From contig NZ_KB907708.1 of assembly GCF_000382165.1 (NCBI RefSeq), positions 62,001 through 126,000 of the forward strand: DNA of 64,000 nucleotides, written 5' to 3'. Made by a program: the position numbers and the translations under genes. Each line of letters starts with the position of its first letter. Position 1 is the stretch's first letter. Positions 7,625 through 12,011 of the stretch are shown here, in pieces. The DNA is from Arsukibacterium perlucidum DSM 18276. GTDB lineage: Bacteria > Pseudomonadota > Gammaproteobacteria > Enterobacterales > Alteromonadaceae. Under the pieces are notes generated by a model that did not search any database, was not told the origin of the DNA, and saw only the letters and a program-made list of their open reading frames with translations.

Positions 7625-8302
7625 TTATTTGCCATGCACTGCAGCCAGCGTCTGGCGCATGGTGTTGATCGTCTGCTGGTAATCAGCGCTGTTGAAAATG
7701 GCTGAGCCAGCAACAAACATATCAGCGCCTGCTGCGGCAATATCGCCGATATTATCAATCGTCACCCCACCATCCACTTCCAACCTGATTGGCAGGCCGC
7801 TGGCGTCAATCATTTTTCGCACCTGAACCAGCTTATCCAGGGTGGCAGGAATAAATTTCTGGCCACCAAAGCCCGGATTAACCGACATCAGCAAAATGAC
7901 ATCCAGCTTATCCAGCACATAATTAAGATAGCTTAGTGGTGTTGCCGGGTTAAACACTAAACCCGCCTGGCAGCCATGGCTTTTAATCAATTGCAGGGTG
8001 CGATCGATATGGCGCGACGCTTCCGGATGAAAGGTAATAATACTGGCACCGGCTTCAGCAAACTGCGGCACCAGACTGTCAACGGGCTCTACCATCAGAT
8101 GCACATCTATTGGCGCGGTAATGCCATAATTGCGCAGTGCCTTACATACCATCGGCCCAATCGTCAGGTTTGGTACGTAGTGGTTATCCATCACATCAAA
8201 ATGAACCACATCGGCTCCCGCTGCCAGTACATTTTCGACCTCACTGCCAAGCCTGGCGAAATCGGCAGACAAAATAGAAGGGGCAATTAAATAAGGCAAC
8301 AT
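7625..8302 (-). CDS. rpe: Ribulose-phosphate 3-epimerase
   Basis: Rpe interconverts ribulose 5-phosphate and xylulose 5-phosphate in the pentose phosphate pathway. The 225-residue product fits the TIM-barrel family. Metal-binding residues are visible as His34 and Asp36 in [14 protein letters not shown], His68 in DVHLMV, and the Asp of EVDGGV near residue 177. The conserved loop [12 protein letters not shown] is intact. It lies upstream of trpS on the same strand and is probably co-transcribed. In related genomes rpe follows dam directly; here three plus-strand genes separate them. Confidence 0.97.
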
Positions 8303-8523
8303 AAACGGGCTCCAAAGATCTGAAAAGCTGACTTTACTGAATTAACCCACAAAAAGCACGTGCTGTAAGTTGCACAAAAAGCAGGCAGCCGCGCACCAGT
8401 TAGGCGCAACCAGCCGTATATAGACGAACTGAAAACTTGCAGGCTATTGTATTTAAATGTTTATTTCATTTGGCATGCTTATTGGAATGGTTTAGCCAGG
8501 GAATAAACATAAGGGCAATACCA

Positions 8524-9204
8524 ATGAAAATGACAACAACACTTTCCAGTTTAGTAACCGCCAGTTTAATTTTTGGCCTGGCCAGCACCAGTCCGCAGAG
8601 CCATGCTGTTGAGCTTAGTGGTGATATCACTTTTACCTCTGATTATGCGTTTCGCGGTATTTCGCAAACCGATGAAGCTCCGGCCATCCAGGGCGGCTTA
8701 ACCCTAAGTGACGAGTCAGGTTTCTATGTTTCGGTATGGGGTTCAAGTGTAGATTTTGGCGGCCAGGGCACACTTGAGTTTGATGTTATGCTTGGCTGGA
8801 GCGGCGCGTTAAATGAAGACTGGTCAATAGATGTCGGGGCTATGCGTTATGGCTACCCTAACACTGAATTTGCCGGCTCTAATTTCTATGAATTGTATGG
8901 TTCTTTGTCGTATGAGGCTTTTACTTTTGGCCTGGCATACAGTGATGACTATTATGCCAATGCTGGTACCTATTTCTATCTGTATGGTGGTTACAGCTAT
9001 GCGCTTACAGATAACCTGACTCTGGACTTGCATATTGGCCAAAACGAATATGACGACAGTGCAGCTAGCTATCTGGACTGGAGTATTGGCTTAAGCACTG
9101 AAGTACTGGGTGCAGGTTTAAGCCTGGCTTACGTAGATACCGATATTGATGCCTGCAATCTGTGTGATAGCCGGGTTATTTTCACCGTTTCAAAAGGTTT
9201 CTGA
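8524..9204 (+). CDS. TIGR02001-family outer membrane beta-barrel protein
   Basis: From ATG 8524 the product has 226 residues, with a cleavable signal peptide of about 27 residues ending SQSHA. The mature part is made of alternating aromatic strands: it opens GDITFTSDYAFRGISQTDEA, typical of the TIGR02001 (gcw_chp) family, and ends in a C-terminal Phe (VSKGF), the usual outer-membrane assembly signal. The role of the family is not established. I chose 8524 because a good signal peptide starts there, with AAGGG about 10 bp upstream; the 87 bp further upstream read as non-signal sequence. The gene is one of three plus-strand genes inserted between dam and rpe. Two cysteines near the C-terminus (CNLC) are unusual for an outer-membrane barrel. 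Confidence 0.85.
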   Translation: MKMTTTLSSLVTASLIFGLASTSPQSHAVELSGDITFTSDYAFRGISQTDEAPAIQGGLTLSDESGFYVSVWGSSVDFGGQGTLEFDVMLGWSGALNEDWSIDVGAMRYGYPNTEFAGSNFYELYGSLSYEAFTFGLAYSDDYYANAGTYFYLYGGYSYALTDNLTLDLHIGQNEYDDSAASYLDWSIGLSTEVLGAGLSLAYVDTDIDACNLCDSRVIFTVSKGF

Positions 9205-9223: not shown

Positions 9224-9253
9224 AAAAAAGTTGCTCAGGATAACCTGAGCAAC
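9224..9253 (-). terminator. Intrinsic terminator acting on leftward (dam-operon) transcription
   Basis: A perfect 10-bp stem, GTTGCTCAGG (9230-9239) and CCTGAGCAAC (9244-9253), closes a four-base loop. A run of six A at 9224-9229 means the minus-strand transcript ends in a hairpin followed by six U. On the plus strand no U-run follows, so it does not look like a normal terminator for the barrel gene. The nearest leftward gene upstream of it is dam, whose stop is about 490 bp away. Confidence 0.65.
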
Positions 9254-9358
9254 TGATCCGGTTAACTACTGCAGCGTATACTAAATAAGCAACTTGTATC
9301 CAAAATGCAGATCCATTACACTCTGCAGTTAGTGATTAAAGCGTTAACTGGATTTAAC

Positions 9359-9613
9359 ATGAAAATTACCTTTAACAGCAAGGCGTTAGCGATTGGAGCC
9401 GTATTTATATTGGCAGCTGCTGCTACCGGCTACTTTAAGGCCAGCCCCTTGTGCCAGGACGGCAGCAGCCAAACGGCTAACGAGCTGTGTCAAAATGCCC
9501 AACAAAATTGGCTAAGCTGGATTAAAGGAGACAGCCGCTCTACCCAGTTCCATTTTGTTGACTTCCTTGAGTTGTTAAACCGTTTAACCCCTGCCAGCAA
9601 CAAAGCTAATTAA
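9359..9613 (+). CDS. Small secreted or membrane-anchored protein of unknown function
   Basis: I do not recognise this 84-residue product. It opens with a basic patch and a hydrophobic segment (about residues 9-24, ALAIGAVFILAAAATGY), followed by a short polar domain with two cysteines (SPLCQ and NELCQ) that could form a disulfide and an amphipathic C-terminal helix (FVDFLELLNRL). It could be a single-pass inner-membrane protein or secreted. An alternative start at 9305 would add 18 residues; 9359 is preferred because the signal or anchor then sits at the N-terminus, although neither start has a strong ribosome site. The stop TAA overlaps the ATG of the next gene (TAATG), so the two are translationally coupled. 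Confidence 0.6.
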   Translation: MKITFNSKALAIGAVFILAAAATGYFKASPLCQDGSSQTANELCQNAQQNWLSWIKGDSRSTQFHFVDFLELLNRLTPASNKAN

Positions 9614-9807
9614 TGGCTGAGACCAAAGCCAGTACCTGGCAAGTTATCAAAGCAGTGCTCGGTGCATTTGTTGGGGTACAATCAGAGAAGCAACGTCAGC
9701 TGGATTTTCAAACCAAGAGCATTGTGCCGTACATAGTTGTTGGCGTTATTGCTGCGTTGCTGTTTGTTGCAACCCTGCTGCTAACGGTAACACTGGTACT
9801 GGGCTAA
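9613..9807 (+). CDS. DUF2970 family small membrane protein
   Basis: The 64-residue product matches the DUF2970 pattern: WQVIKAVLGAFVGVQSEKQR, then a linker, then one transmembrane helix at about residues 38-62. Members are short inner-membrane proteins of unknown function found across Gamma- and Betaproteobacteria. It begins at the TAATG overlap with the preceding small gene. Its last 62 bp lie on the strand opposite the 3' end of dam, so the two genes overlap convergently. The family call is firm; no biochemical role can be given. Confidence 0.85.
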   Translation: MAETKASTWQVIKAVLGAFVGVQSEKQRQLDFQTKSIVPYIVVGVIAALLFVATLLLTVTLVLG

Positions 9808-10624
9808 CCGCCGGATATAACGCAAACAGTTCTGCCACTTTACCTCTGCCTGCTCCGTTCTGACTAATCGAACGACCTACCTGAATAGTTTTTAATACCG
9901 CCTGCTGATATATTTTCCGGGTCCAGGTAGTGTCGTGGTTGCTTATCAACACACTGTGACCCTTTTGCTGGGCCTGTTCAGCCAGATTAGCCAGCTGTGC
10001 TTGATCGTCCAGATTGAAACCCTGCCGCGCGTAACTGGTAAAACTGGCAGTTTTGCTAAGGGGCACATAGGGCGGGTCACAATAAACGACGGCCTCAGGC
10101 GTCAGCCCGGTAAATACCTGCTGATAACTACTACAACTAAAGCGGGCTTTCTGGGCTTTTTCCGCGAAGTAATATAACTCTGCTTCAGGGAAATAAGGCT
10201 TTTTATAACTACCAAAAGGAACGTTAAACTTGCCCGAAAGGTTATAGCGACACAGCCCGTTATAACCGTGTCGATTCAGGTAAAGAAACAATAATGCCCG
10301 CTGATAAGGATCAGTACAGCTGTTAAATTGTTGCCGAAAGCTAAGATAGCTGCTGCGCAGATTAGCGCTGGCACAAAACAGGCTGCTGGCATCTGCGACA
10401 AAGGTATCGGCTTTATGCTGGACGATCTGATATAACTGAATTAAATCTGCGTTAATGTCATTCAACACGTAACGAGGGTAATCGGTGTTCAGAAAAACCG
10501 AACCTGCACCAACAAAAGGCTCAACCAACTCGGGTCCTTCAGGCAGATGCTTTATCAGTTCAGGCACCAGGCTGTATTTACCACCAGCCCACTTCAAAAA
10601 AGCCCGGTTACGCTTAACATTCAC
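9746..10624 (-). CDS. dam: DNA adenine methylase (GATC)
   Basis: Dam methylates adenine in GATC using S-adenosylmethionine and guides mismatch repair and replication timing. I start it at GTG 10624, giving 292 residues: AGGA lies 8 bp upstream, the start is 4 bp past the damX stop, and the N-terminus then reads VNVKRNRAFLKWAGGK like other Dam proteins. A start at GTG 10654 would overlap damX. The SAM-binding motif FVGAGSVFLN (37-46) and the catalytic DPPY (183-186) are present. The C-terminus runs about 20 residues past the usual end (ELFALYP), and this tail is encoded opposite the DUF2970 gene. Dam is the last gene of the pil-aro-damX set. Confidence 0.95.
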   Translation of the reverse strand: MNVKRNRAFLKWAGGKYSLVPELIKHLPEGPELVEPFVGAGSVFLNTDYPRYVLNDINADLIQLYQIVQHKADTFVADASSLFCASANLRSSYLSFRQQFNSCTDPYQRALLFLYLNRHGYNGLCRYNLSGKFNVPFGSYKKPYFPEAELYYFAEKAQKARFSCSSYQQVFTGLTPEAVVYCDPPYVPLSKTASFTSYARQGFNLDDQAQLANLAEQAQQKGHSVLISNHDTTWTRKIYQQAVLKTIQVGRSISQNGAGRGKVAELFALYPAVSPVPVLPLAAGLQQTATQQ

Positions 10625-10628
10625 CTGA

Positions 10629-12011
10629 CTATTCCTGCCGCTCTGACTCAGCACGTAACCGAGCTAAGGCTTTAATTTCTTGTTGCACCTGCCCAACGGG
10701 CTTGATAAACGGCCCCGCCGCTCGCAGTGTCTCTGGCAGCGTTGCTCGTGCCTGACGTGCACTTTCGACATCAGGATAATAATCTTTAGCCAGTATTATC
10801 CATTGTAATTGCCCTTGCCAACTGCGCTGATACACTACTATATCGGTGTCAGGGTTAGCCTGAATAAACCGCCCGACCGCAACTTCAGATGACAATACCG
10901 CCAGCTGCAGCACCCTGAAACGTGCCGGCAATGCCAGTAACTGCTGTTCCTGATAAAATGATTCAATTGCTGGCTCTGCCACCACAACATCGTTGCTTAA
11001 ACCTGTGTCTGCGGGCTGCTCTGTGACAACAGCCTGCTCAGCATTGACTGTTTGCTCAGTTGTTGTGACCTCAGAGGACGCTTCGCCCTCAACAAGGTCA
11101 GACAACCCGGTTAAGTCTGTCGCTGCAGCGTCTACTTCCAGCTGAACGAAGTCAGGTAATTCAGGACTGTTGTCGGGCTCCGGGCTACTTACTGCATCAG
11201 AATTGATGTTCTGCTCCGGCAACTCAGTTCTCTCGGGTTTCTCGTTATATTCAGAGTTGTCTGCAGGCACAGGAGTGAACTCAGCCACTGCTGGAGTTGG
11301 AGGTTCCACTGCTACAGTCTGCTCACCAGTGGCAGGCAACAACCAGTTGATTGCAACAGCCAGCACCAGCAGAACTATGGCAGCAGGTAGCAACCAAAAT
11401 GCCGCGCCTTGCGTTTTGCGCTCTTCAGGCCTAACAATAGCACTATGCAATAAATGCATATTGCCGCCACTGGCAGCAAACCGTTCAGCAATAGCCAGTG
11501 GATCCAGTGCTTTATCTTTCAATATGTGACTGGCATCTTGCAAGGTAGGGTAATTAATACTTAAATTCAGCGCCATATCGGCAGATGGCTCGGCCAACAT
11601 AAAAAAACCAAGGCAATCGAGCTGCAACAGTTTTTGGCGGGCACTGCTACTGAGCAGATTAAAATTATCAACAATTAACAATAGCGGCATACTGTCAGCT
11701 GGCAGTTCAGCCATCAGTTCTGCCAGTGCAGGTTCAGGCTGGCGCTGCCCAAACCAATGTTGCTGTAACTGGCCTTCGAGTTCCGTCTCATTTATAGGGC
11801 CACTCAGCAGTGCTACGTTTGCCTGTTCTGAGAAAAGTTCCGCCAACGCTAAAGCCAGGGTCGATTTGCCACTGCCTTCAGCACCGACCAGGCCAATATT
11901 CTGAAAGTCATTAAACGCTAGCTGAAACAACAACCTGTTCAACAATTCATGCTGTGATGGCAGTAAATGACGCTGCTGAGCCAGTTTCTGCTGCAATACC
12001 GAGGTATCCAT
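10629..12011 (-). CDS. damX: DamX-like cell division protein (AAA, transmembrane, SPOR)
   Basis: DamX is an inner-membrane SPOR protein that binds denuded septal peptidoglycan during division. The 460-residue product has three parts: an N-terminal AAA-type ATPase-like domain with Walker A GAEGSGKST (43-51); a single transmembrane helix near residues 204-228 (FWLLPAAIVLLVLAVAIN); and, after an acidic, Pro/Thr/Glu-rich linker (about 230-345), a SPOR domain near the C-terminus. The linker is low in complexity and likely disordered. Its ATG overlaps the aroB stop by one base (TAATG). Gene order aroK-aroB-damX-dam matches that in E. coli. Confidence 0.92.
   Translation of the reverse strand: MDTSVLQQKLAQQRHLLPSQHELLNRLLFQLAFNDFQNIGLVGAEGSGKSTLALALAELFSEQANVALLSGPINETELEGQLQQHWFGQRQPEPALAELMAELPADSMPLLLIVDNFNLLSSSARQKLLQLDCLGFFMLAEPSADMALNLSINYPTLQDASHILKDKALDPLAIAERFAASGGNMHLLHSAIVRPEERKTQGAAFWLLPAAIVLLVLAVAINWLLPATGEQTVAVEPPTPAVAEFTPVPADNSEYNEKPERTELPEQNINSDAVSSPEPDNSPELPDFVQLEVDAAATDLTGLSDLVEGEASSEVTTTEQTVNAEQAVVTEQPADTGLSNDVVVAEPAIESFYQEQQLLALPARFRVLQLAVLSSEVAVGRFIQANPDTDIVVYQRSWQGQLQWIILAKDYYPDVESARQARATLPETLRAAGPFIKPVGQVQQEIKALARLRAESERQE

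Follow-up and report, generated by a model that had tools for sequence, protein, structure and literature searches.

Where dam transcription may end: a convergent overlap, an old gene cassette and a clade-specific leftward hairpin at the torF 3′ end

Mismatch repair, the timing of replication and phase variation all depend on how much Dam a cell has, and the place where the dam transcript ends is the question raised by this locus. In the window (the whole stretch of DNA analysed, 64,000 nucleotides long), the minus strand carries pil genes, aroK, aroB, damX and dam, then a gap, and then rpe and trpS; matches in family libraries back the names dam, damX and rpe, weakly so for damX (E=6e-8, below its cut-off), and the names pil, aro and trpS, taken from the initial annotation and from recognition of the open reading frames, are presumably correct. 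The dam gene (9746-10654, minus strand) encodes a Dam-family adenine methyltransferase (Pfam D12 methyltransferase, E=1.3e-68; NCBIfam TIGR00571 dam), and rpe (7625-8302, minus strand; family-library matches) is the next gene on its strand. The gap between them holds three plus-strand genes: torF (8527-9204), an outer-membrane barrel of the TorF/Gcw_chp type by family-library matches; sml (9359-9613), an open reading frame of 84 amino acids from a family without a name; and a DUF2970 gene (9613-9807; Pfam, E=5.8e-21), which encodes a small membrane protein and whose first base is the last base of sml. The DUF2970 gene is convergent with dam, and the gene coordinates bear out the tail-to-tail coding overlap of 62 bp (9746-9807, both strands) reported in the initial annotation, which had gone on to propose that dam transcription runs antisense across both small genes to a distant terminator. 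Searches of the literature on the dam operon and antisense transcription, and on strand-specific transcriptomes of Rheinheimera, listed nothing on the present locus, and the papers found on DUF2970 mention it in passing.

The proposed terminator is a hairpin at 9229-9254, 492 nt from the dam stop on the minus strand; read on the plus strand, it begins 25 nt downstream of torF. The plus strand reads AAAAAA (9224-9229), then GTTGCTCAGG-ATAA-CCTGAGCAAC (9230-9253), and an extra A-T pair (9229/9254) brings the perfect stem to 11 pairs, 6 of them GC. The A-run corresponds to the U-run of a leftward RNA, and the plus-strand tail of the hairpin is TGATCCGG; a GC-containing stem followed by a U-run on the transcribed strand, the form of an intrinsic terminator, is therefore present leftward, where termination is predicted, and the earlier description of a perfect stem with a leftward U-run about 490 bp past dam, and with none on the plus strand, proves correct. 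Among perfect stems the hairpin is unique in the window; ranked by energy it is surpassed. Under a strict rule (a Watson-Crick stem without mismatches, 9 or more pairs long, including 5 or more GC pairs, and a T-run of at least 4), the hairpin is the sole match on either strand of the 64-kb window, and 20 dinucleotide shuffles yield 1 match in total, which shows that such perfect stems seldom arise by chance; under an energy rule (a T-run of 4, an energy of -14 or lower, imperfect stems allowed), the part of the contig that forms the window contains 10 hairpins, of which two are stronger than this one (-20.7 and -21.4 vs. -18.2), and no other lies between dam and the hairpin. Two weak leftward candidates are seen, one of 5 pairs at 9640-9628 and one of 11 pairs with one mismatch, 1,334 nt past dam and before rpe; a loose terminator list over 14 kb stays at chance level (13 vs. 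14.9 ± 4.6), and no Rfam family matched between 6 and 20 kb of the window. Taken alone, the window's hairpin would be an ordinary terminator.

A different picture comes from the related genomes, where the hairpin follows torF. The genus-mates of the source genome include Rheinheimera and Alishewanella species, and of the 28 genomes of the genus that carry torF, 21 have a compact hairpin 8-41 nt downstream of its stop, with sequences that differ entirely between lineages. Sought in relatives, the hairpin thus recurs in its position at the torF stop but not in its leftward U-run, which in clear form is confined to the window's clade: among the 21 hairpins, 7 have the U-run on the left (the window, L031-L034, L036 and L037, with the A-run on the torF side), 3 on the right (L039, L053 and L056) and 11 on neither side. 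An A-run of at least 4 is found in all seven clade genomes, weakly so in L034 (AAAAT). No compact hairpin follows torF in L038, L040, L042, L043, L046 and L051, and the sole hairpin of L054 is a palindrome in the sml promoter. The former six genomes carry a long-loop inverted repeat (for example CCAGACACA...TGTGTCTGG) around a conserved ATCAGCTTG box. The seven leftward genomes group together in a tree of rpe and trpS DNA (95/91 support), on which the leftward U-run is a single gain kept in all seven as labelled; the labels were set by hand, given that one automatic finder over-extended stems (window, L034, L053, L056, L064, L071) and a second misses A/T runs inside stems, and they count L034 as left, though weak, and L055 as having no U-run. 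The latter genome belongs to a different lineage; four A's stand in a row close to its hairpin, and a cruder rule labels it left, in which case the trait arose twice. Because the hairpin goes with torF and its U-run lies to the right or is missing outside the clade, an antisense tail that stops here cannot be how dam transcripts generally end in the genus. The hairpin has the look of a leftward stop signal particular to the clade, placed where torF ends.

Outside the genus, a plus-strand T-run, read by eye, follows torF in 9 of the 16 non-duplicate loci (L064, L066, L067, L071, L075, L091, L120, L126 and L163), all of which except L064, L071 and L163 also have an A-run (6 of 9). The ancestral element was likely a torF terminator, often two-sided, of which the window's clade shows only the leftward half. 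The G-U wobbles among the 21 hairpins (5 plus-only, two of them in sisters, 1 minus-only and 1 both) favour the plus strand, which hints faintly that the hairpin serves the torF mRNA as well. The loop as scored in the window's clade is of 4-6 nt, the spacing between the GTTGCTCAG and CTGAGCAAC halves varies from 5 to 9 nt, and the L034 hairpin carries a compensated pair, as expected of an RNA hairpin and not of a protein site.

The genes lying in the path of leftward RNA are probably transcribed on a promoter of their own, towards dam. A sigma-70-type promoter is predicted from the conserved alignment at 9294-9322 on the plus strand (TTGTAT, 17 nt, TACACT), and its CTTG and TAnnnT elements keep a constant spacing in 30 of 30 aligned genomes, an alignment that covers 30 of the 31 genus genomes, L057 being left out by the start-finding rule. 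The sml protein combines an N-terminal hydrophobic stretch with a C-terminal motif around SRSTQFHFVDxLELLxRLxP, strongly conserved in the homologues upstream of DUF2970 (W.W..G.SRS.QFHF.DLLELL.R in most), and four members tried against Pfam matched no family at E≤1. The initial annotation had regarded the genes between dam and rpe as an inserted block; a recent insertion is rejected, the cassette being genus-wide and wider, hence old. DUF2970 is present in all 31 genus genomes, window included, and lies beside dam in 30; torF is at the locus in 28, with L057, L059 and L060 as the exceptions. Outside the genus, DUF2970 occurs in 17 of 29 sampled genomes, and among 80 named loci chosen by dam similarity (5 of them apparently from genomes that are also in the set compared here) it follows dam directly and convergently in 38, from Rheinheimera, Alishewanella, Pseudoalteromonas, Shewanella, Aestuariibacter, Enterovibrio, Salinivibrio, Zobellella, Agarivorans and others. 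Beyond the cassette, rpe is co-directional with dam in 35 of these 38. In 32 of the 80, among them enterics and Vibrio, rpe is at most 400 nt from dam with no DUF2970 between, the remaining 10 falling in neither class, and in E. coli the dam-rpe junction was matched in 5375 of 5426 genomes. Judged from these gene orders, the cassette interrupts, throughout a large group, what would otherwise be a classical operon order. A single genus genome (L044, G024) has dam about 3.5 kb from DUF2970, as if by an insertion between them.

The overlap itself is widespread, being found in 27 of the 31 genus genomes and measuring at least 56 bp in 21. The dam stops were located in two ways, the second of which fails in L034, L038, L040 and L046, with the stated counts the same either way; as to the overlap length in L041 and L047-L050, one stop-walking procedure overshoots and the other gives 56, and the named-locus count uses the former. 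In 8 close genomes, the dam tail inside the overlap has pS 0.09 and pN 0.32, vs. 0.76 and 0.06 for the rest of dam without the tail, and it looks free as a protein, mirroring the DUF2970 frame. Within the overlap, which spans about 20 codons, DUF2970 shows a lower pS (0.59), a dip that may reflect either double-coding constraint or noise. Elsewhere, synonymous divergence in the same 8 genomes is not lowered in sml (0.73) or in DUF2970 outside the overlap (0.77) vs. trpS, rpe and torF (0.63-0.70), a comparison of diverged sites in short genes that makes for a weak test. On these values, the codons of the small genes show no sign of an antisense constraint outside the overlap, and nothing was found in support of the regulatory link between dam and the small genes that had been suggested.

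The absence of a terminator behind dam may be less telling than it appears. Of the 15 convergent pairs on the 152-kb contig, 9 are without an intrinsic terminator within 200 nt of either gene's end (genes were taken as greedy open reading frames, among which DUF2970 is too short, and the dam pair is therefore sml-dam), which makes the missing terminator behind dam ordinary; intrinsic terminators are present at 23 of 133 gene ends and at 7 of 30 ends facing an opposite-strand gene, vs. 12% of random positions. Immediately past the dam stop (1-121 nt; 9625-9745, minus strand) lies a C-rich, C-spaced, rut-like stretch, a possible entry site for Rho. Its score is high among 132 gene ends (78th and 82nd percentiles) but low among 100 antisense stretches (31st and 18th), so that it is not special; of 30 genus genomes, 20 have a rut-like start no more than 100 nt beyond dam and 10 do not. 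Given that terminators are commonly absent and that a rut-like stretch adjoins the dam stop, their absence is no proof of a long transcript. What stands of the proposed antisense run is that no strong terminator intervenes and that the small genes lie in its path, and some of the dam transcripts, at least, may plausibly have an antisense tail. According to a preprint (PMC13082048), convergent transcription in E. coli is widely terminated by head-on collision. At dam/rpe of E. coli BW25113, 47% rifampicin-sensitive termination is tabulated, with an asRNA as a possible reason, and the event is listed as conserved in MG1655 and K. aerogenes, the text naming two E. coli strains (PMC10349824, Table 1); the same source describes few rifampicin-sensitive events in 3′-3′ overlapping transcripts of E. 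coli, K. aerogenes and Synechocystis.

The reading that we favour, and hold to be somewhat better than an even bet, is that the dam and DUF2970 RNAs end by Rho or by collision near the overlap, and that the hairpin is a backstop for read-through before torF. From the layout and its conservation we infer all the RNA ends, the collision, the use of Rho and any regulation. An old cassette, torF followed by sml-DUF2970 with its own promoter, faces the dam operon from a position between dam and rpe; dam and DUF2970 meet tail to tail, with an intrinsic terminator for neither, and both RNAs would most likely end in or near the overlap by Rho-dependent termination, head-on polymerase collision, or both, leaving variable antisense 3′ tails there. 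Some leftward RNA would read through sml and the sml promoter, and in the window's clade the U-run would turn the torF 3′ hairpin into a backstop, acting before the read-through becomes antisense to torF; placed in the torF 3′ UTR, the hairpin may also fix or protect the 3′ end of the torF mRNA. Termination by Rho or collision is favoured by the conserved layout and promoter pair, by the ordinary absence of terminators, by the rut-like stretch and by the published data on collision and on dam/rpe. The backstop role draws support from the hairpin staying with the torF stop while the side of its U-run changes, and the retention of the leftward U-run despite strong synonymous divergence (pS 0.63-0.77) suggests that some leftward RNA probably reaches it. 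Against this reading stand the low rank of the rut-like score among antisense stretches, the 10 genomes with no rut-like start near the dam stop, the scarcity of rifampicin-sensitive events in 3′-3′ overlaps, the thinness of the wobble evidence, and L055, which if counted as left makes the U-run a trait gained twice.

Were the dam operon mRNA instead to run regularly for the approximately 490 nt to the hairpin, its antisense portion would repress sml-DUF2970 inversely to dam. The path is free of strong leftward terminators, the hairpin at its end is the only perfect-stem terminator in 64 kb and retains its U-run in the window's clade, and the RNA would cross the sml promoter (9294-9322); this is nevertheless unlikely, considering that the hairpin is at the torF 3′ end also in lineages without a leftward U-run, that convergent pairs commonly have no terminators, and that sml and the non-overlapping part of DUF2970 are not lowered in synonymous divergence. 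Alternatively, the hairpin might serve torF alone, as a 3′ stabiliser or a decayed terminator, with the A-run incidental to leftward transcription. Its constant place 8-41 nt downstream of torF (21 of 28 genomes), the plus-side T-runs in L039, L053, L056 and 9 of 16 non-genus loci, and the lean of the wobbles to the plus strand agree with this, but the A-run is kept in seven clade genomes while the spacer preceding it varies in length and sequence, and no T-run stands on the plus side, so that we regard an exclusive role for torF as improbable.

More demanding is a noncontiguous operon, in which the dam RNA would pass through the whole cassette into rpe-trpS and the cassette mRNA would act as its antisense. 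Such an arrangement is described in a review (PMC7154746); the order dam-[cassette]-rpe, which in 35 of 38 named loci has rpe on the same strand as dam, would suit it, as would the few and weak leftward terminators of the genus outside the window's clade. Within that clade, however, a leftward terminator is in the way, and the region upstream of rpe has its own conserved blocks throughout the genus, interpretable as a promoter or leader, which makes continuous transcription into rpe very unlikely. A protein-binding operator near the sml promoter, finally, would account for the near-identical arms of the palindrome in the 8-genome clade, but the spacing of the arms varies, and in other lineages the arms change compensatorily or completely while pairing stays; it is rejected for its variable spacing and has next to no probability.

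The locus resembles several known systems in part. The term excludon covers, in the usage of Toledo-Arana and Lasa (PMC7154746, Fig. 3b legend), a convergent 3′ overlap with no terminator between the genes, and dam and DUF2970 are such a pair, with overlapping 3′ regions to be expected as in the convergent 3′-3′ type; the label excludon-like given initially is apt in this respect. An excludon would further entail overlapping mRNAs acting as antisense on each other and repression of each side by the other; a weak and indirect test gave no lowered synonymous divergence in sml or in DUF2970 outside the overlap, and the functions of the genes are not known to be antagonistic. With the E. coli genes of the collision preprint (PMC13082048), it shares a tail-to-tail arrangement, here without classical terminators; it differs in having a strong hairpin 490 nt from the overlap, and not between the convergent genes. 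As at E. coli dam/rpe (PMC10349824, Table 1), opposing RNA at the dam 3′ end is a possible reason for partial termination (47% there), although the opposing RNA is an asRNA in that case and would here come from a protein-coding cassette with a conserved promoter-like pair. The opposite-strand genes within a co-directional row recall the noncontiguous operon menE-menC-MW1733-ytkD of S. aureus (PMC7154746), and opposite-strand genes do lie between genes of one operon order in 35 of 38 loci, with dam and rpe directly adjoining in 32 of 80; in contrast to that operon, a predicted leftward terminator is present in the window's clade.

These likenesses raise the possibility, a tentative and rather doubtful one when all its parts are taken jointly, that the dam 3′ end is a recurrent collision point in Gammaproteobacteria, opposed by an asRNA in enterics and by sml-DUF2970, whose promoter is conserved at least in the window's genus, in Alteromonadales and relatives; convergent transcription would then set the output of the dam operon and shield rpe and torF, and Dam methylation could, in the window's clade, even tune its own opposing transcript via GATC. 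If this is true, an opposing transcript at the dam 3′ end, from enterics to Rheinheimera, would be an overlooked layer of dam-operon control. At the rpe start of enterics, a candidate antisense promoter resembling CCGACA-18-AATACT is seen at one and the same position in 11 of 20 loci; the match is weak and lies within coding sequence. A hairpin with rightward, leftward or no U-runs at one place also constitutes a natural series on the evolution of terminator direction.

The methylation feedback, the least likely of these ideas, starts from a pair of GATC sites separated by 55 bp, the first adjoining the hairpin (9255) and the second in the spacer of the sml promoter (9310). It is kept as a minor idea only, for the spacer site is limited to the clade (7 of 8 genomes, vs. 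0 of the 22 other aligned genomes), its GAT forms part of a longer run of conserved bases, and the contig has fewer GATC sites than expected (414 vs. 593). Conserved blocks are also seen upstream of rpe, in the rpe-torF intergenic region (8302-8527, minus strand; 28 genus genomes aligned), where TGGTGC...TGC...TTTTT.GTGC and approximately CAGTAAAGT may represent a promoter or leader. In L054 and L058, a palindrome (AATCAGC...GCTGATT) surrounds the -35 element of the sml promoter, as a possible operator.
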